NCBI RefSeq assembly: GCF_038066715.1 | Contig: NZ_JBBUKT010000006.1 | Coordinates: forward strand, 1-64,000 | Direction: 5' to 3' | Source of the DNA: Luteolibacter sp. Y139 | Lineage (GTDB): Bacteria; Verrucomicrobiota; Verrucomicrobiia; Verrucomicrobiales; Akkermansiaceae | DNA: 64,000 nucleotides | Shown here: piece after piece, positions 25,393 to 52,448 of the stretch | Layout of the letters: every line of letters begins with the position of its first letter | Position numbering within the stretch: the first letter of the stretch is position 1 | Made by a program: the position numbers and the translations under genes | Notes under the pieces: generated by a model | Told to the model about the DNA's origin: nothing | The model's database searches: none | What the model saw: only the letters and a program-made list of their open reading frames with translations

Positions 25393-25418
25393 GGCGGGGC
25401 GGACAGGTGGAAGAAGAG

Positions 25419-25503
25419 CGGAGGGGGTGGGATTCGAACCCACGGTCAGTTTCCCGACTTCGGTTTTCAAGACCGACGCGATAGACCACTCTGCCACCCC
25501 TCC
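25419..25503 (-). tRNA. tRNA-Ser (anticodon UGA)
   Basis: The 85-base minus-strand gene folds as a class II tRNA. Acceptor GGAGGGG pairs with CCCCTCC, the D-arm contains GGCAGAGTGGTC, the anticodon loop is CTTGAAA giving UGA, the variable arm is long, and the T-arm is GTGGG-TTCGAAT-CCCAC. The discriminator base is G and no CCA is encoded. It lies 26 bases upstream of the HupE-like gene. Confidence 0.93.
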
Positions 25504-42391: not shown

Positions 42392-43705
42392 TCATGAAAG
42401 CATCAGCGGTCCGCCTTCACAGAACTTTTGCTGGCCGAAGACGGGGATGTGATGGCCGAAGGCGTGGGCGATGGAGAGCCAGAGGCGGTTGTGGGTGACG
42501 TTGTCGAACTGCATGGCTTGGCCGGTCTTGAAGCCGAGTCCGCCGCCGAGGAGGACGAAGGGGATGTTGTCGAGGGAGTGGCTGTTGCCTTTGCCGAGTT
42601 CGTTGGTCCAGACGATGGTGGTATTGTCGAGCATGGTGCCCTGGCCGCCGGGTTCGGGAATGCTGTCGAGCTTCTTCGCGAGATAGGCGAGCTGCTCGCA
42701 GAGCCAGATATTGATCTTCACCAGTTTTTCTTGTGCTCCGGCATTGCTGTCCGGCTCGTGGGAAAGTCCGTGGTGATCCTCGTTAATATCCAGCCAGCGC
42801 ATGCGGGCTTGGCCGACGCTGTTGGTGTATTGGAGCGTGGCGACGCGGGCCATGCCATTGGCGAAGGCGTTCACCAGCAGGTCCGCTTGCATGGTGCTGA
42901 TCTTCGGGATGCCATCGTTGTCGAGGGCGACACCTGCTTCCAGCGCGGGGGGAGGGAGGAGGAGATTCTGGGTGCCGCTGCTTTGGAGATCCTTCTCCAT
43001 CTCGCGGACGAAGGTGGCGTGTTTTTCTAACAGATCCTTTTCCTCTCGGTCGACATTGGCGGCGATGGTGCGCAGGTCATCGCGCACTTCATCGAGCACG
43101 CTGCCGAGGTTTTCCCGGTCCTTCGTGCTGCCGTAGAGTTTATCGAACAGGGAGTAGGGATCGCTGTTCGGGGCGAGCGGCTGATTCGGGCCGGCGTAAG
43201 ATTCTCGGGTCCATGGGTCGGCCCTGTTAGGAACGGCGACGCCGACTTCCAGCGAGCCGAAGCGGGTTGCGGTCTCGGGGCGGGCCTGGAGGAAATTCCT
43301 GATCTCCTGGTCGATGGAGATGTTACGGGCCCAGCCGGCGGGTTTGTCGCTGCCGCCCTGGATATTGCCGGGTAGAAGCTCATCGGCGGTGAGCAGGCAG
43401 CTGATGCCGCGCATGTGGCCATCACCATCGCCGCGGACCTTATTGTGCACGCCCTTCAGGGTCATGAGGCGCTTCTTGAAGGGCTCGAGCGGCGCGAGGA
43501 TGCGCTTGAGCTGGAAGTCCGGTCCCGCTTGATCCGGCCAGAACTCTTGTGGGATGGTGCCGTTCGGCGTGAAGAGGAAGATGATGCGCTGCATCTTCGA
43601 GCCGGGCGCGTCTTGCGCGAGCGAGGGCAGCGATGGGAGGAAGGGCAGGGCAGCGGCGGACAGGCCGAGCTGGCGGAGGAAGTGGCGGCGGGTGGTCGTG
43701 TTCAT
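42392..43705 (-). CDS. DUF1552 domain protein, Tat-exported
   Basis: The 437-residue protein begins MNTTTRRHFLRQLGLSAAAL, a twin-arginine signal. The mature part has the DUF1552 features: MQRIIFLFTPNGTIPQEFWP, LKGVHNKVRGDGDGHMRGIS, DQEIRNFLQ and MLDNTTIVWTNELGKGNSHS. The family is related to DUF1501 sulfatase-like proteins of PVC bacteria, and its chemistry is unknown. It overlaps the upstream DUF1592 gene by ATGA (43702-43705), the standard pairing of these two families, so they are made together. Confidence 0.85.
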   Translation of the reverse strand: MNTTTRRHFLRQLGLSAAALPFLPSLPSLAQDAPGSKMQRIIFLFTPNGTIPQEFWPDQAGPDFQLKRILAPLEPFKKRLMTLKGVHNKVRGDGDGHMRGISCLLTADELLPGNIQGGSDKPAGWARNISIDQEIRNFLQARPETATRFGSLEVGVAVPNRADPWTRESYAGPNQPLAPNSDPYSLFDKLYGSTKDRENLGSVLDEVRDDLRTIAANVDREEKDLLEKHATFVREMEKDLQSSGTQNLLLPPPALEAGVALDNDGIPKISTMQADLLVNAFANGMARVATLQYTNSVGQARMRWLDINEDHHGLSHEPDSNAGAQEKLVKINIWLCEQLAYLAKKLDSIPEPGGQGTMLDNTTIVWTNELGKGNSHSLDNIPFVLLGGGLGFKTGQAMQFDNVTHNRLWLSIAHAFGHHIPVFGQQKFCEGGPLMLS

Positions 43706-46023
43706 CGGCTGGCTTGGTCAGGGCTGGCAATGCCGTGGCGAGCGGTCAGTGCATTGATTTCGACGAGGAGTTGCCGGATTTGATGGCCGGATGCGGTGAA
43801 GGTGGCATCGAGCTTCGTCACCGTGTCGTAGCCATACACGGCGGGATTCTGCTTCAGCTCGTATTGGAGAAGTTGGCGGATGAAACCGCGGCGCGCGCCG
43901 TCGGATTCCACGGCGTGATTTGCCAGATCGCGAGGACCCTTTAATCGCAGTGTTTCACCTTCGAGCGTATGATAATCGGCCTCGGGGTCGATGGGGCGGT
44001 CACCCTCGGTGGTGCGGTAGCGGCCCACGGCATCGAAGTTCTCCAGGGTGAAGCCGAGCGGATTGATCGTCTCGTGGCAGGTCATGCAGTTCGCGTTCCG
44101 CGTCATCTCGGCGACCTTCTCGCGCATAGTCATCTTTGGATCGAACTTGTGGTTCTCGAAGGCGATCGCTTCGGGCGGTGGCTTGAGGATGCCGCCCAGT
44201 ACATTGCGCGTGACGAAGACGCCGCGGTGGATGGGCGAGGTGCTGTCGGGATGGGCGAGGCGGGCGAGCAGGTAGGGATGCGTGAGCACGCCGGCGCGTT
44301 GGGCGGGATCGAACTTCACCGGTTGGAAGCCGCCGCCTTCCGGCATGGGAACGTCGTAGAACTTCGCCAGGCGGTCATTGAAGAGGAGGTAGTCTGCTTG
44401 GATCAGTTCGCGGTAGTCGGACTTCTCGCTCCACACGACCTGCTCGACAAATAGCTCCAGCGAGCGCCGGAGGTCGGCGACCAGTGCGGCATCGAAGCCG
44501 GGGTATTCCTTTTCGTCCTTCCGCAGCAGGTCGCTATCGGCATCAAGCTTCAGCCAGCGTTGGAAGAAGGCATTGGCCTTTGCCTTCGCCCGCGGGTCGG
44601 CGATCATGCGCTGGGCTTGGGCTTTCACCTGCTCCTGCGTGTGGAGCTGGGCGTTCTTCGCCGCGTCTAGCAAAGGCTGGTCCGGTAGCGAATCCCATGC
44701 GCCGAGTGCGAGCCGCGAGGCGACGGTGTAATCGTCCTTTTCCTTGCCGAGTTCCGGATAAAGGAAGCGTGGCGACTTCAGGATGAGGATGACGGCGCGC
44801 TTTACCGCTTGCTCCGGAGCGATGCCATCGGCGAAGGGGTGCTCGACGTAGAGCTGCTGCATTTCATCGGTCAACGGGCGACGGAAAGCTCGCTCGGCGA
44901 AGGTTGCGATGAAGGCCTTCAGTTTCGCCGGACGCTCGGGGTCCTCGTCCTTCGTCTTGCTCAGGAAGGGCAGGCGGGAAAGCACTTGGTTCGCCACCTC
45001 GATCGCTGCGGTGGTGGTGGCCTCGTGCCAATCCTTCGAGATGCCGGTGCCGCGTTCATAGCCTTCGCTGGCGTCGTCGGCAGGGAAATCCGTGCTGACC
45101 ACGGCGATCCGGACGGCGCGTGATGGTGAAAGATACGGTGCGCGTAGTACTTCCCACTCGCCGCGCGGGGCCTTCCACTCGAGGCGGACCATGCCGCGCT
45201 TGTCCTGATACTTGAAGTAGTCGAGCCGGAAGGGATAGCTGCGGCCGCCGAGCAAGAAGACGCGCGCCTTTGACTCGCGGACCTCGGCGCCGGAGTTGAC
45301 CCAGGCATCGATCAGGGCGGGCTGGCGCTTGGCACCGCTATCGTCGCGGAAATTCCCGTCGCCTTCCTGTTGGTCGCCATTGAGGTAGAGGCGGGCACCA
45401 TTCGGGGTGACCAGCTTGAACTCATACCAGCCGGTCGCGGGTGCGAGGAGCGAGCCGTCCCACGCGACCGAATACTGGTCGGCCTTCATGCCCTCGGCCG
45501 GCGGCCCTTCGCCGAAGTCGAAGGCCAGCTCGCGGTCCTCGCGTTCGAGCGCCTTGCGGGCCTTCTTGTTCATGCCGTCGGAGTCGAAGTACTGCGCCTT
45601 CAGTCCGCGGCCTTCGCCGGGCTGGGCCGCTTGGCCGAAGCTGCCTAACAGATCCGCCACGGACTCGCGGAACTGGCGGTTGGTGAGGCGTGCGAAGGCG
45701 GGCTTCGGCGGTGGTGTGTTTTTTGCCCGCGCTTCGTCTGAGTAAAAGGCACGGTAGATGAACTCGGCGACCCGCTGGGATTCCTCGGCATTCAGGATCT
45801 CCGGTTTGTCCTCCGGCATCTTGCGGTCGATGTAGCGCGCGAGTGAAGGCAGCGCGCGCTCGCCTTGCAGGGGCTCGTCCACTTCATCGGGATTTCCCTC
45901 GCCGTGCTTGCCGTGGCAGGAGGCGCAGTGCTCGGCGTAGATCGCTTCACCGGTCAAGGGGGCAGGTGCTTCCTGCGCGAGCAGGCAGCCTGTCAGTCCC
46001 ATGACAATGGAGATCCGGAACAC
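43702..46023 (-). CDS. DUF1592/PSD-type protein with cytochrome c and PA14 domains
   Basis: The 773-residue exported protein has the signal MFRISIVMGLTGCLLAQEAP and near its N-terminus a c-type heme site (YAEHCASCHGKHGEG). Next come DUF1587-like FARLTNRQFRESVADLLGSF, a PA14 domain at about 155-290 (VTPNGARLYLNGDQQEGDGN), then DUF1595/1592/1588/1585 parts: RRPLTDEMQQLYVEH, DYLLFNDRLAKFYDVPMPEG, AGVLTHPYLLARLAHPDSTS, CMTCHETINPLGFTLENFDA and RRGFIRQLLQYELKQNPAVY. A second C-x2-CH in the DUF1588 part may bind another heme. Such proteins are PVC specialities, probably extracytoplasmic redox enzymes; the substrate is unknown. Confidence 0.88.
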   Translation of the reverse strand: MFRISIVMGLTGCLLAQEAPAPLTGEAIYAEHCASCHGKHGEGNPDEVDEPLQGERALPSLARYIDRKMPEDKPEILNAEESQRVAEFIYRAFYSDEARAKNTPPPKPAFARLTNRQFRESVADLLGSFGQAAQPGEGRGLKAQYFDSDGMNKKARKALEREDRELAFDFGEGPPAEGMKADQYSVAWDGSLLAPATGWYEFKLVTPNGARLYLNGDQQEGDGNFRDDSGAKRQPALIDAWVNSGAEVRESKARVFLLGGRSYPFRLDYFKYQDKRGMVRLEWKAPRGEWEVLRAPYLSPSRAVRIAVVSTDFPADDASEGYERGTGISKDWHEATTTAAIEVANQVLSRLPFLSKTKDEDPERPAKLKAFIATFAERAFRRPLTDEMQQLYVEHPFADGIAPEQAVKRAVILILKSPRFLYPELGKEKDDYTVASRLALGAWDSLPDQPLLDAAKNAQLHTQEQVKAQAQRMIADPRAKAKANAFFQRWLKLDADSDLLRKDEKEYPGFDAALVADLRRSLELFVEQVVWSEKSDYRELIQADYLLFNDRLAKFYDVPMPEGGGFQPVKFDPAQRAGVLTHPYLLARLAHPDSTSPIHRGVFVTRNVLGGILKPPPEAIAFENHKFDPKMTMREKVAEMTRNANCMTCHETINPLGFTLENFDAVGRYRTTEGDRPIDPEADYHTLEGETLRLKGPRDLANHAVESDGARRGFIRQLLQYELKQNPAVYGYDTVTKLDATFTASGHQIRQLLVEINALTARHGIASPDQASR

Positions 46024-46151
46024 TTCCCGGATACGTCACCAAAGGGCCGCTTTTTCGATTAATGTGAAGATCGGGCGACAACAGGCGGATTGACGGTTTC
46101 TCCGGGCATGTTGGATGCTCCGCATCGTTTCAAAGGAACGAGATCAAAAGC

Positions 46152-46985
46152 ATGAATTCTCAGGGCAAAGTATGGTTGGTGACGGGAACTTCTTCCGGTT
46201 TCGGGCGGCGGATTGTCGAAGAACTCATCGCTCGCGGCGAGCAGGTGATCGCGACGGCGCGTGATCCCCGTGCGGTGGAGGATCTGGTGGCGCTGGCACC
46301 CAATAACGTGCTGGCGCTCCGGCTGGATGTCACGAAGGCGGAGGACATCCGTGAGGCCGTGGCGGCGGCGGTGGAGCGGTTCGGGAGGATCGATGTGCTC
46401 GTGAACAACGCGGGCTACAGTGTGGTCGGAGCCGTGGAGGAAACGGGGGAGGAGGATCTCCGGCATATCTTTGAGACGATGTTTTTCGGCGCGGTGGCGA
46501 TGACCCAGGCCGTATTGCCGGGGATGCGCGAGCGGGGTTCGGGCACCATCGTGCAAATCAGCAGTGTGGGCGGTTTCATCACCGCTCCCGGATTCGGGCC
46601 TTATTGCGCGGCGAAGCACGCGCTTGAGGCGCTTTCCGAGGCCTTGGCGGCGGAGGTGCAGCCCTTCGGGATGCGGGTGCTGATTGTGGAGCCCGGGGCA
46701 TTTCGCACGGAGCTTTTTGGATCCGCTTTCCGCAGCATGCCTGAGATGGAGGTCTATGCTCCGACGGTGGGGGCGACGCGGAATTATGCTGCGCAATCCG
46801 CCGGGACGCAGGCGGGCGATCCCGTCAAGGCGGCCAAGGCAATCCTTGATGCGGTGGCGGCGGGGTGTCCTTCGCTGCGGTTGCCACTGGGAGCGGATGC
46901 GATCCACGGAATGCGGGCAAAGCTCGCCCAAGTGGCCGCAGACGTGGACTGGAATGAGGCGATTGCCGCTGCCACAGCCTATTGA
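46152..46985 (+). CDS. Short-chain dehydrogenase/reductase
   Basis: The 277-residue oxidoreductase has the SDR cofactor motif VTGTSSGFGRRIVEELI (TGxxxGxG), NNAGYSVVGAVEETG, the catalytic IVQISSVGGF (Ser), and YCAAKHALEALSEALA (Tyr-x3-Lys). After that comes the loop VEPGAFRTELFG. It acts on an alcohol or carbonyl with NAD(P). AAAGGAACGAG stands seven bases before the ATG as a good ribosome binding site. It is divergent from the DUF1592 gene, and its substrate cannot be inferred from this neighbourhood. Confidence 0.85.
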   Translation: MNSQGKVWLVTGTSSGFGRRIVEELIARGEQVIATARDPRAVEDLVALAPNNVLALRLDVTKAEDIREAVAAAVERFGRIDVLVNNAGYSVVGAVEETGEEDLRHIFETMFFGAVAMTQAVLPGMRERGSGTIVQISSVGGFITAPGFGPYCAAKHALEALSEALAAEVQPFGMRVLIVEPGAFRTELFGSAFRSMPEMEVYAPTVGATRNYAAQSAGTQAGDPVKAAKAILDAVAAGCPSLRLPLGADAIHGMRAKLAQVAADVDWNEAIAAATAY

Positions 46986-47025: not shown

Positions 47026-47039
47026 TGTTCGATTGAACA
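47026..47039. promoter_or_regulatory. LexA (SOS) box of the imuA-imuB/dnaE2 operon
   Basis: TGTTCGATTGAACA is a perfect palindrome of the form TGTTC-N4-GAACA, which as I recall is the LexA motif described for Verrucomicrobia. It stands 27 bases before the imuA start and overlaps the candidate -35 (TTGAAC, 47033-47038), so bound LexA would block RNA polymerase. The operon is a classic SOS target. Confidence 0.85.
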
Positions 47040-47066: not shown

Positions 47067-47690
47067 ATGGCTGCCGCCGTGATCGAGCAACTGCGCAAGC
47101 AACTGCGGGAGAAATTCCCGCAGGCTCATGTCGCGCCGCCGATTGCCGCCGAAAAGCCGCCCCTGACACAATCCCTCGATCCCGGATTCTTTCCGCCGGG
47201 GGAAATTTCAGAAGTGGTGGGCTCCGGCCTCGGTTTGCTGGTAGCGGGTCTCTTGGGCGAGCCACAGGAAATGGCACCTCTGCCGGATTTCATTCTCATT
47301 GATGGAGGTGATCAGTTTGATCCTGCATCTTTCACGCCCGAAGCCTGTTCGCGGTTGGTCTGGGTTCGTTGTGGCACGGCGGCTGAAATGTTGAAGGCAA
47401 CGGATCTAGTTGTTCGAGATGCGAACATTCCTTTTATCCTGCTGGATACCTGTGGCATCGGTCGCAGGGAATTAAGATGCATCCCGGCCCCGGCGTGGTG
47501 GCGGCTGAAACTGGCGGCTGGAACAGGAAATTGTCGCCTCGTCGTCATGTCACCCTTCGCTCAGGTGCCGTGTGCAGCGGTGCGCGTGGTGCTGGATAGT
47601 TGGGTGAGGCTGAGGGATTTCGAGCTTCCTCGCCGCGAACTCGTAGCGCGGCTGCGCATGGTGCCGGTGAAGATGAAGAGAGTGAATTGA
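47067..47690 (+). CDS. imuA: ImuA-like RecA-fold protein of the SOS mutasome
   Basis: The 207-residue protein has the shape of ImuA/SulA-like RecA relatives: GFFPPGEISEVVGSGLGLLV corresponds to the G-x-hhE-hxG lead into the P-loop, but the GK[ST] of Walker A is missing. PDFILIDGGDQFDPASF is the Walker B-like strand, and the end (LRMVPVKMKRVN) is basic. ImuA is thought to hold ImuB and DnaE2 together at stalled forks. The gene follows a LexA box and is six bases upstream of the giant imuB-dnaE2 gene, as expected for the imuA-imuB-dnaE2 cassette. Sequence resemblance is weak; the assignment rests mainly on context and fold-like motifs. Confidence 0.72.
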   Translation: MAAAVIEQLRKQLREKFPQAHVAPPIAAEKPPLTQSLDPGFFPPGEISEVVGSGLGLLVAGLLGEPQEMAPLPDFILIDGGDQFDPASFTPEACSRLVWVRCGTAAEMLKATDLVVRDANIPFILLDTCGIGRRELRCIPAPAWWRLKLAAGTGNCRLVVMSPFAQVPCAAVRVVLDSWVRLRDFELPRRELVARLRMVPVKMKRVN

Positions 47691-47696
47691 AACGTC

Positions 47697-50600
47697 GTGT
47701 TCGCAGCCCTTCATCTTCCTGATCTCACTGTGATGGCTGCTATGCGAGCCTGTCCCGGGGCGTGTAGGAAGCCGTGCGCCGTGTTGGAAGCAGATGTCGA
47801 TCCTGAGGCGATCTTGGAGAAGGTGAAGCTGCAACTCCAAGCGGTGAACGACGTTGCGCGAGAGACTGGAATCGGTCCCGGCTGGCCGCTCAATCGTGCT
47901 CTCGTCCGCTGTCCCGATTTGAAGGTGCTGACACCGGATCCTGAGGGCGAGGCGCAATTGCTGGGAGAGATGATTGCGCAAGCGGAAGGCATCACGCCGG
48001 ATCTGGAAATCGCGTGCAAGGATACGCTTTTGCTGGATCTATCGCGCACGTCTTCACGGCATGCGGCACGCTTGAGTGAATTGGAAGTGGCGGATGTTTG
48101 GCCACTGCATGCGAGGGCGGCCACGCCGGACCTCGCTCGCCTCGCGGTAAGGCATGAGGACTGCCACGAACGCTTGGTCACCTCGCGGGATATCGCCAGA
48201 TTACCTCTAGGACTGCTGCATTTTCTACCGGGTGGCGGTGAATTCCTGCCACTGCTGAAGGATTGGGGCCTCTCGAAGCTCGGGGACTTCATGGAGCTTT
48301 CACGACAGGATCTGACTGCTCGTCTGGGACCTCAATCGGGTGCCTGGCATGACCTGCTTCATGCCAAGACTTGCCGCCTGTTGCGGCTCCATCGGCCGCC
48401 GGAGAGCATGGAGCAGACCATGGACTTTGAGGAGCCGGTGACTGCGACCGAACCGCTGGTGTTTGCTTTCAAGCGCTTGCTGCATGCGCTTTCCGCCCGC
48501 TTGGCGGCCCGGTATGTGGCCGTGAAGACTTTGAGGATTATCTTCCATCTGGAACGTGGAGGAATCTTTTTCCGGGAGATCCGGCTGCCCGAGCCGCGGG
48601 TGGAGGAGGGGGAGTTGCTCAGGCCGATTCAGGTGCTGCTAGATTCGCTGAAGACCGGTAGTAGCGTGGCGGGCATTACGCTCGATGTGGAAACCACGCT
48701 GCCGACCTCGGCGCAGCGCGATTGGTTCATCCGCCAGCTCCCACAACCGGAGCGTTGGACGGATACATTGGCGCAATTGGAGGCTCTGTTAGGTCCCGGG
48801 AAGGTGGGTATTCCCGTGCCGCCTGCGAGCCATCGACCGGATGATTTCAAGCTGCACGTTGCGGATGGAAGCATGCCGGCCTCTTCGAATGGCTTCTTTC
48901 CTCCAAGCTCCTTGCCTTTGCGCCGTTTTCGCCCTGGTGTGTCAGTGATAGTCGCCGCCGACGCCAATCCCAGCCAACCACGGCCACTTGCCGTGCTAAC
49001 TGGTCCCTATCGGGGGCAGGTGATGGAAAGCCGTGGTCCCTTTGGAGCTTCCGGCCACTGGTGGGACGTCCATCCTTCCTGGCAACGGCGCGAATGGGAT
49101 GTGCGCCTCGCAGGTGATCATCTTCTGCGTCTCGCTTTTACGCCGCCGGACCGATGGTCGATCGATGGGCATTATGAGAAAGAGGATGACCTTGGGATGC
49201 CTGATGCGAAGGAGAATGCAGCAGCGGTTGTCTCATCTGTCGCTCAGTTGAAAAAGAGAATGCGGCCATTCGTGGAGTTCCATGCCCGATCGGCGTTCTC
49301 TTTCCTGAGGGGATCGAGTAATCCGGAACAAATGATCCTCCAGGCAAGGGAAGTGGGCTTGGATGCGATTGCGATTACCGACCATGAAGGCTTTTACGGC
49401 TCACCTCGAGCTTACAAGGCCGCAAAGGAGTTGGGAGGGATTCGCGCCATTACTGGTGCTACCTTGGAGATGGATGGAGCCCAAGTTCCGGTTCTATGTG
49501 CCACACAGGAAGGTTACAAAAGCTTGTCCCGGCATCTCACCAACCGGCATCTCAAATCGATCGTTGCCCACGGAGATCTGAATGACGGGAGATTGATCGC
49601 CCTTACCGGTGATCGCGAAGGGCCTTTGATCCGGCATCTGCTACGCGATGACAAAGAGGCTGCATTGAAAGCGGTGAATGCCTTGATCGACACCTTTGGC
49701 CACGGCAACGTGTATGTGGAGATCCATCGGCATAGCCTTCGGGATGACGGCAAGCTGAACCGCTATCTGGTGGATCTTGCCCGTCACCTCCGTCTGCCTC
49801 TGTTGGCGAGTAATGCGCCCCTTTATGCAAGGCGGGAAGACCGTTTGTTGGTGGATGCCTTCACTTGCCTGAGGCATCATACTTCTCTGGACGCTGCAGG
49901 ACTCTTGTTGGAGTCAAATGGAGAGCGCCATCTCAAATCGCCTCAAAAGATGGCGAGGCTTTTCCATGATCTTCCGGAAGCATTGGAAAACACGGCCAGA
50001 CTTTCAGACCGGATTGGCTTTGCCTTGGAGGATATGGGATACCAGTTCCCTCATTTGACCGATGAAGCTGGGGGGCTCTTTATCGAGCAAGAACAGGAAC
50101 AGCTATTGCGGGAACGTTGCCGCGAGGGCGCGATTTGGCGTTATGGGAAATGCGACGGGAAGGTCAGGAAGCGCTTGGAAAAGGAGATCTCGCTCATCTG
50201 CCGGCTCGGGGTTGCCGGCTATTTCCTAATCGTTCAGGACATCGTCTTGTACGCTCGGCGCGAAAACATCCTTTGCCAAGGCCGGGGGTCTGCCGCAAAC
50301 TCGGTGGTTTGTTTCGTCCTGGGCATCACGAATGTCGATGCCGTGAAACAGAAGTTGGTCTTCGAGCGCTTCCTTTCCGATCCACCTGAGGGGAAGAAAA
50401 AGGAGATTGTTTGGCCGGATATCGACATTGATTTCCCATCGGGCGACCAACGGGAAAAGGCGATCCAATATGTCTTCAACAAGTACGGCGCCCGCGGTGC
50501 CGCCATGACGGCAAACGTCATCACCTATCGGCCCCGCTCGGCTTTCCGGGAAATGTCCAAGGTGCTTGGTTTCCCTCCTTCAATCGCAGACCGCTTTTCC

Positions 50601-52448
50601 ACGATGGGGGGATCTCCCGAATACCAGCGTTGGGAAGAGAAGCAGGAAGAAATCGGAGTGCCCGAGGAAGAGAAGAAAAGAAGGGAAGAGGAACGACGGC
50701 ATGAAGCATTTGAAGAGAGCATGGCGAGCTTGTTGCCGCCCTCTCATCCGCGCCTAGCCGCTCTTGAAAAGTTATATCATGCAGTGCTGGGGTTGCCGAG
50801 GCATTTGGGGCAGCATTCCGGCGGCATGGTCATTTGCGCGGGAGGCTTGGATGAAGTGGTGCCTATCCAGCCTGCCAGCATGCCGGATCGAACCATTGTT
50901 CAGTGGGACAAGGACGATTGTGAGAACCTGGGTCTGGTGAAGATTGACCTGTTAGGTCTCGGCATGTTCGCCGCGATGGAGAACATGATCGAGATCTGCA
51001 AGCGCAGGAATGAGCATGTGCCTCTGGATGAAATCCCGCTGGATGATCCGAAGGTCTACGACATGCTGCATTGCTCGGATACGATCGGGACCTTCCAGGT
51101 GGAATCGAGGGCTCAGATGGCGACCTTGTCCATTCTCAGACCAGAGAGCTTTTACGAGATTGCCATCCAGGTTGCCATTGTCCGGCCGGGGCCGATTGTG
51201 GGAGATCTTCTGAACCCTTATTTGAGAAGGAGAAACGGCCGAGAAAAGCCCGATTGCATTCATCCGAAACTGGAGAAGGCGTTGGGTCGGACCCTCGGCG
51301 TGCCTCTATTTCAAGAGCAGGTGCTTCAGATGGGAATGATCATTGCCGGATTCGATACCACCGAAACCGCAGAATTGCGGAGGGCGATGTCCTTTCACCG
51401 CTCTCATGAACAAATGGATCGCGTGACCGCGAAATTGCACCATCGGATGACAGAACGTGGGATTCCATTGGATGTTCAAGAGAAAGTCATCCGGGCCACT
51501 GAAAATTTCGCCGAGTATGGTTTCCCCGAAAGCCATGCCCTGTCATTTGCCGCAGTCGCTTACTGGTCCTGCTGGTTCAAGGTCCATCACCCTGCAGCTT
51601 TCTACACCGGCTTGATTAACAACCAGCCGATGGGCTTTTACTCCACTCATTCCTTGATCCAGGATGGCAAGAGACACGGCATTCGGTTTTTGCCAGTTTC
51701 ATGCGTGCACAGTCTTATGGTCACGGATGTGGTGGATGAGAATGTGATCCGTCTCGGCCTGCATCGTCTTCAGGGGATTTCCAAGGAAACGCAGGAGAAG
51801 ATTGTGGAGGAGAAGACCAGGGAGCCCTTTGATTCCTTGGAGGATTTTCTCTATCGCGTCGTTCCTAATGCCAGAGAGCGACGGATTCTGGCGAAGTCGG
51901 GGGCGTTGAATGATCTGCCGAAAGCGGGGCATCGGCGGAAAGTAATGTGGCAAGTGGAGCTGCCTCTGTATGGCGATCTGTTAGGCGGTCAAGAGGAGGC
52001 TTCCGAAGATGCTCTTGCTGCGATGACCATGCCTGAGCGCCTTGCCGCGGATCTTTCAATCCAAGGAGCTTCTACTGGTCCGCATGCCATGAAGCTGTGG
52101 CGGAGGAGCCATGCTGAGATGGGGCTGGTGAATGCGCGGGATCTCCAGAGCTTGCCGCATGGGATGCCGGTGAGGGTGGGGGGCTTGGTGATTTGCCGTC
52201 AGCGTCCCGGGACGGCGAAGGGGCATTGCTTTATTTCGTTGGAGGACGAAACGGGGATCTCGAATCTCTTTGTGAAGAAGGAGAACTTCCAACGGATGCG
52301 GCTGACTATTGTCAGCGAGCCTTTTCTGATGGCGACGGGGCGGGTGCAGATTGCCGAAGGGGGGATGCGGACGGTTTATGTGGATGAGGTGTTTCCTTTG
52401 CCGGGGGCGGAGCCGGTTCATGCGGCGGAGTCGCATGATTTCCACTGA
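47697..52448 (+). CDS. imuB-dnaE2: ImuB-DnaE2 fusion: translesion mutasome in one polypeptide
   Basis: One uninterrupted frame encodes 1583 residues from GTG 47697. Residues 1-~493 are ImuB: it starts VFAALHLPDLTVMAAMRACP, where the Y-family metal Asp of the DMDAFF block is lost, keeps LLLDLSRTSS in place of the SIDE block, and ends with the ImuB-type tail RLAFTPPDRWSIDGHYE. A ~28-residue charged linker follows. From ~524 on it is DnaE2: PHP domain (FVEFHARSAFSFLRGSSNPE, AIAITDHEGFYG), polymerase palm with VWPDIDIDFPSGDQREKA (catalytic DxD) and RTIVQWDKDDCENLG (third Asp), FPESHALSFAAVAYW, and the C-terminal OB part (GLVICRQRPGTAKGHCFISL). DnaE2 extends bypass products and ImuB docks it to the clamp; here they are joined covalently. 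No standard QLxLF clamp motif is obvious. Codon use is less G+C-rich than its neighbours. Confidence 0.93.
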   Translation: MFAALHLPDLTVMAAMRACPGACRKPCAVLEADVDPEAILEKVKLQLQAVNDVARETGIGPGWPLNRALVRCPDLKVLTPDPEGEAQLLGEMIAQAEGITPDLEIACKDTLLLDLSRTSSRHAARLSELEVADVWPLHARAATPDLARLAVRHEDCHERLVTSRDIARLPLGLLHFLPGGGEFLPLLKDWGLSKLGDFMELSRQDLTARLGPQSGAWHDLLHAKTCRLLRLHRPPESMEQTMDFEEPVTATEPLVFAFKRLLHALSARLAARYVAVKTLRIIFHLERGGIFFREIRLPEPRVEEGELLRPIQVLLDSLKTGSSVAGITLDVETTLPTSAQRDWFIRQLPQPERWTDTLAQLEALLGPGKVGIPVPPASHRPDDFKLHVADGSMPASSNGFFPPSSLPLRRFRPGVSVIVAADANPSQPRPLAVLTGPYRGQVMESRGPFGASGHWWDVHPSWQRREWDVRLAGDHLLRLAFTPPDRWSIDGHYEKEDDLGMPDAKENAAAVVSSVAQLKKRMRPFVEFHARSAFSFLRGSSNPEQMILQAREVGLDAIAITDHEGFYGSPRAYKAAKELGGIRAITGATLEMDGAQVPVLCATQEGYKSLSRHLTNRHLKSIVAHGDLNDGRLIALTGDREGPLIRHLLRDDKEAALKAVNALIDTFGHGNVYVEIHRHSLRDDGKLNRYLVDLARHLRLPLLASNAPLYARREDRLLVDAFTCLRHHTSLDAAGLLLESNGERHLKSPQKMARLFHDLPEALENTARLSDRIGFALEDMGYQFPHLTDEAGGLFIEQEQEQLLRERCREGAIWRYGKCDGKVRKRLEKEISLICRLGVAGYFLIVQDIVLYARRENILCQGRGSAANSVVCFVLGITNVDAVKQKLVFERFLSDPPEGKKKEIVWPDIDIDFPSGDQREKAIQYVFNKYGARGAAMTANVITYRPRSAFREMSKVLGFPPSIADRFSTMGGSPEYQRWEEKQEEIGVPEEEKKRREEERRHEAFEESMASLLPPSHPRLAALEKLYHAVLGLPRHLGQHSGGMVICAGGLDEVVPIQPASMPDRTIVQWDKDDCENLGLVKIDLLGLGMFAAMENMIEICKRRNEHVPLDEIPLDDPKVYDMLHCSDTIGTFQVESRAQMATLSILRPESFYEIAIQVAIVRPGPIVGDLLNPYLRRRNGREKPDCIHPKLEKALGRTLGVPLFQEQVLQMGMIIAGFDTTETAELRRAMSFHRSHEQMDRVTAKLHHRMTERGIPLDVQEKVIRATENFAEYGFPESHALSFAAVAYWSCWFKVHHPAAFYTGLINNQPMGFYSTHSLIQDGKRHGIRFLPVSCVHSLMVTDVVDENVIRLGLHRLQGISKETQEKIVEEKTREPFDSLEDFLYRVVPNARERRILAKSGALNDLPKAGHRRKVMWQVELPLYGDLLGGQEEASEDALAAMTMPERLAADLSIQGASTGPHAMKLWRRSHAEMGLVNARDLQSLPHGMPVRVGGLVICRQRPGTAKGHCFISLEDETGISNLFVKKENFQRMRLTIVSEPFLMATGRVQIAEGGMRTVYVDEVFPLPGAEPVHAAESHDFH

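Follow-up and report, generated by a model that had tools for sequence, protein, structure and literature searches.

A probable lineage-specific imuB-dnaE2 gene fusion, read in one frame, within a putatively LexA-controlled cassette of a Luteolibacter/Haloferula-type verrucomicrobium

ImuB and DnaE2 are normally separate proteins of an error-prone DNA-copying machine, and they must find each other. To our knowledge, the recruitment of DnaE2 by ImuB and the ratio of the two proteins are known solely from genetics, imaging and models. The locus described here resembles the ImuA-ImuB-DnaE2 mutasome of Mycobacterium tuberculosis and proteobacteria (PMC10421592, PMC12926913) in its components, in their order, in the inactive Y-family ImuB, in the catalytic Asp residues of DnaE2 and in the putative LexA-type control, but it differs from that system in that ImuB and DnaE2 lie in one frame and in that its ImuA-like protein is only weakly similar to the NCBIfam ImuA model. 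The window, i.e. the whole stretch of DNA that was analysed (64,000 nucleotides), belongs to a genome (G000) to which, among named taxa, species of Luteolibacter and Haloferula are closest, and the features of the locus are collected in Table 1.

Table 1. Features of the imuA-imuB-dnaE2 locus, with positions in the window and the basis of each assignment
Feature	Position	Strand	Basis
LexA-type box TGTTCGATTGAACA (palindrome)	47026..47039		exact TGTTCNNNNGAACA
imuA-like gene, 207 aa, separate	47067..47690	+	synteny, conservation
Fused imuB-dnaE2 ORF	47697-52448	+	GTG start, 1583 codons, without internal stop
ImuB part, residues 1-493	47697..49175	+	Pfam IMS; identity to separate ImuB of relatives
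Predicted ImuB-C beta domain, residues ~408-493	48918..49175	+	AlphaFold2 model of 385-800
Linker, residues 494-521, with Met501 at 49197	49176..49259	+	EKEDDLGMPDAKENAAAVVSSVAQLKKR
Codon 495, AAA (Lys), place of lost imuB stop	49179..49181	+	congener comparison, alignment
Segment of different ancestry (approximate breakpoints)	49182..51701		separate trees, AU tests, informative sites, sliding identity
DnaE2 part, residues 522-1583 plus stop	49260..52448	+	NF004225, native-start match, catalytic Asp

The fused gene starts just downstream of the imuA-like gene, with six bases between them, and in the whole-genome copy its frame was open over 1585 aa with zero stops. The encoded chain consists of a complete ImuB joined to a complete DnaE2 through a linker of 28 residues. 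Within the ImuB part, Pfam IMS matched residues 38-125 (E 1.6e-6) and IMS_C matched residues 237-332 with an E-value of 0.022 that is short of the cut-off. The DnaE2 part gave matches to PHP (528-679, 6e-25), DNA_pol3_alpha (803-1087, 5e-69), the finger domain (1093-1255), HHH_6 (1328-1414) and OB (1492-1568), and NCBIfam NF004225 (error-prone DNA polymerase) covered residues 522-1583, from position 3 to 1047 of the model, and scored 1046 bits (cut-off 939). The ORF, the whole-genome copy and the Pfam and NCBIfam profiles confirmed the continuous, stop-free ImuB-DnaE2 frame reported in the first-pass annotation, which had also placed the end of ImuB at about residue 493 and the start of DnaE2 at about residue 524 rather than at Met522 (49260). 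Read in this same frame, the ImuB and DnaE2 parts are about 81% and 74% identical, each over its whole length, to their counterparts in the closest species, G008. Because both parts are conserved in full length and in the same frame, and the junction is without a stop, the in-frame join exceeds chance. Apart from the fused gene, the genome gave one C-family polymerase match, the replicative DnaE1 on contig 10, and one Y-family match, which is a full polymerase (contig 1), so that no second ImuB or DnaE2 was found there.

The motif WPDIDIDF aligned to the polymerase Asp pair of PDB 4jom and KIDLLGL to its third catalytic Asp, and the DnaE2 catalytic residues are thus retained, as had been proposed from the letters of the window. 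The accompanying claim that ImuB has lost its Y-family active site held genus-wide, the signature being missing from the ImuB part and from congener ImuB by a comparison based on motifs and not on structure. Motif comparison with the congeners also revealed that the clamp-like QLPQPERW and the RecA-NT-like TLAQLEALLGPGKVGIP are conserved in the ImuB part. In an AlphaFold2 model of residues 385-800 (mean pLDDT 72.7, pTM 0.59), which does not show domain docking, ImuB-C was all-strand with a pLDDT mostly around 90 except in one loop, and the ImuB-C beta and PHP domains, each mostly well predicted, flanked a low-confidence linker with a tentative helix. The motifs and the model together suggest that the ImuB part has predicted clamp-binding and RecA-NT motifs plus a C-terminal beta domain.

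The imuA-like gene is syntenic in the relatives, with identities of 34-80%, and scored 12.3 bits against NCBIfam ImuA, whose cut-off is 150; because of this low score, the name imuA rests on position and conservation. Because this gene stays outside the fusion, the cassette as a whole is not a single gene. The LexA-type box precedes imuA by 41 nt, start to start, and all 17 readable loci of relatives carry TGTTCNNNNGAACA in a similar position ahead of imuA (16 exact, one with one mismatch), the motif being assigned by comparison among these relatives' loci. It was also found about 20 nt upstream of the genome's own lexA (G000:C1:46686; lexA at 46064-46666, minus strand). Since there are 12 exact copies in the 7.1 Mb of the genome, isolated copies elsewhere mean little. 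The conserved box before imuA and the one beside lexA support the SOS-type setting that had been suggested, and the cassette appears to be under LexA control. A scan for promoters near the operon did not find a sigma-70-like site. Elsewhere in the window, the large protein encoded at 43702-46023 (minus strand) has, close to its N-terminus, a CASCH motif that resembles a c-type haem site, and a tRNA-Ser (anticodon TGA) at 25418-25503 (minus strand) is the sole tRNA and the sole Rfam gathering-level match.

When the ends of imuB were compared in 16 congener genomes (G006 was left out as unreadable), each stop lay no more than about three codons away from the Tyr493 position, in most cases exactly at codon 495. 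The congener stop is nearly always TGA, where the window has AAA, and in an alignment in which the stop (TGA) was read as residue W, Lys495 fell in the stop column. Between Lys495 and Met522 there are 26 codons, and Met522 occupies the native DnaE2 start position of the congeners; the ancestral start of DnaE2 persists in the fused frame as this internal Met. In G008 the imuB stop and the dnaE2 ATG overlap as ATGA. A gene-level homologue of the linker was not found among 117 genomes of the family. Across the genus, the imuB-dnaE2 gap varies widely, between about -10 nt and 258 nt, and several spacers (L063-L079) carry repeat-like sequence. The DnaE2 beside imuB in G003 (L070, G003:C9:261168-263995) is apparently interrupted, with matches to residues 519-865 and 997-1583 in separate pieces, and this genome has a second DnaE2 copy on contig 11. 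A second, more divergent DnaE2 (61-64% identical to that of the window) occurs in several congeners (L098, L097, L117, L017 and G008:C16), and the flanks available for these copies yielded no ImuB.

By DnaE1 identity, G008 and G011 are the nearest of the genomes compared (97%, the others reaching 91% or less). The window ImuB is 80.7% and 79.1% identical to those of G008 and G011, respectively (79-81% when G015 is included), and the window DnaE2 is 74.3% and 73.4% identical (73-74% with G015), while the DnaE2 of G008 is 84.0% identical to that of G011 and 80.0% identical to that of the more distant G009. Because the distances of the window DnaE2 to the outgroups are about equal to those of its relatives, with no acceleration, its low identity does not stem from faster evolution. 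Informative sites uniting G000 with its sister species numbered 27, with 0 against, in ImuB, 8, with 13 against, in residues 522-1339, and 15, with 2 against, in residues 1340-1583. The AU tests rejected the grouping of G000 with its sisters for DnaE2 1-810 (p-AU 1.1e-5) and the placement of G000 outside them for ImuB (p 0.012) and DnaE2 818-1062 (p 0.027), p values that are optimistic because the groupings were chosen after the trees and data had been viewed. The trees show a mosaic in which ImuB and the DnaE2 C-terminus track the nearest species, while the DnaE2 stretch between the junction and residue ~1335 comes from a deeper lineage. Given this mosaic, the fusion probably arose by recombination close to the junction, although the stop may instead have disappeared through a point mutation that followed an unrelated recombination. 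The donor of the divergent dnaE2 segment was not found among the genomes compared.

The in-frame ImuB-DnaE2 fusion is a singleton, present in one genome. None of the 68 ImuB-DnaE2 loci in a GTDB scan was fused (80 loci were retrieved, 12 of them without imuB, and several came from genomes also in our own set), and overlapping surveys of the phylum, class and order yielded no second in-frame fusion among about 200 DnaE2-bearing genomes of Verrucomicrobiota. The only other frames of more than 1400 aa in the Verrucomicrobiota survey were those of G311 and G215, which were read, and that of G734 (1421 aa), which was left unread; L105 has a frame of the same length. On checking, the long frames of G311, G215, G235, G073 and L105 proved not to be fusions, since each overlaps imuB or upstream sequence in a different frame. 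Beyond Verrucomicrobiota, sampling was confined to plasmids and phages. The plasmid matches inspected had separate imuB and dnaE2 genes by annotation, the Tsukamurella and Octadecabacter matches, each with a single annotated product, were likewise not fusions by annotation, and no match in the phage records reached 80% coverage of the query. The papers searched described no ImuB-DnaE2 fusion. The notion of the fusion as an established arrangement is unsupported, given its single occurrence across the surveys.

Taken together, these results make it likely that the locus holds a genuine lineage-specific imuB-dnaE2 fusion, in a cassette putatively under LexA control, and that its single chain would work in cis. 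Most likely, recombination would have brought in a divergent copy in place of the 5' three quarters of dnaE2 together with the spacer, the 5' edge of the incoming segment would have fallen at the imuB-dnaE2 boundary, removing the imuB stop, and the former short spacer would have become the 28-residue linker. DNA damage would then lift LexA repression and allow imuA and the fused gene to be transcribed as one mRNA; the catalytically dead ImuB half would bind the beta clamp and ImuA, the DnaE2 half would synthesise across lesions, and the contact of ImuB-C with PHP would form within one molecule. The frame, the domains, the lost stop, the mosaic ancestry, the LexA-type box and the lack of a second ImuB or DnaE2 in the genome are observed, whereas we infer that recombination was the cause, that a single chain is translated, that it is active and that the contact forms in cis. 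In published AlphaFold models of the mycobacterial complex, ImuB-C is set against the PHP domain of DnaE2 (PMC12926913); the linker joins these two parts, and a 28-residue tether is therefore plausible.

The single chain is the likeliest product, and it is unlikely that DnaE2 is made mainly from an internal start at Met522 or Met501, with an ordinary separate polymerase doing the work and the fused chain being minor or tolerated. Met522 does lie at the native start position of the congeners, a purine-rich AGAGGA stands upstream of Met501, and, since the dnaE2 ATG overlaps the imuB stop in G008, stop-start coupling may have operated in the ancestor. However, a junction without a stop provides no terminating ribosome for stop-start reinitiation, and the binding site before Met522 is weak, as estimated by an energy comparison that was set aside because genes scored no higher than random positions. 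Moreover, no ImuB ending at residue 493 can be made from this frame, and a fully separate ImuB/DnaE2 pair would therefore need proteolysis. The earlier description of a 'covalent SOS mutasome' stands as regards the frame, the domains and the LexA-type box, but not as regards the single chain as the only product, since Met522 and Met501 remain; an effect of the covalent link on function is likewise unsupported. We hold only tentatively, and short of calling it probable, the stronger version in which recombination at the gene boundary gave rise to an obligate single-chain ImuB-DnaE2 translesion polymerase with clamp docking and lesion synthesis tied in cis at a 1:1 ratio and with no separate DnaE2.

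Both halves of the chain are intact, with the catalytic residues kept and no acceleration, and no other copy of ImuB or DnaE2 was found in this genome, which renders quite improbable a neutral or decaying accident in which loss of the stop harms the cassette and is bound to be short-lived, even though the fusion is common to no relative and the interrupted DnaE2 beside imuB in G003 implies that DnaE2 loss occurs in the genus. A sequencing or assembly error hiding a gene pair with the usual stop might be suspected from a singleton in a 31-contig draft, the more so as the stop is present in every readable relative. Nevertheless, such an error is highly improbable: the change from TGA to AAA takes two substitutions, the spacer is open and in frame, and the adjoining DnaE2 segment of different ancestry is not producible by error.

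If the fused chain is made as we favour, this natural covalent ImuB-DnaE2 would give structural studies a single-chain construct that is already at hand, and with it one could ask whether ImuB-C and the PHP domain of DnaE2 function within one molecule. The case would also document gene fusion via loss of a stop where a recombined segment begins, and the importance of the fusion hinges on a second independent occurrence or a demonstrated protein. The congener cassettes (G008, G011, G015, G009 and others) are alike in operon order and in the LexA-type box, but they retain the imuB stop, and the 5' part of the window DnaE2 derives from another lineage. The DnaE2-iPolY-ImuB-C systems (PMC6511836, PMC12926913) show that mutasome modules have been joined and split in evolution; in those systems, however, ImuB is split into two proteins, whereas here it is whole and joined to DnaE2. 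We accordingly regard the locus as a new variant of the known imuA-imuB-dnaE2 system and not as a new system.
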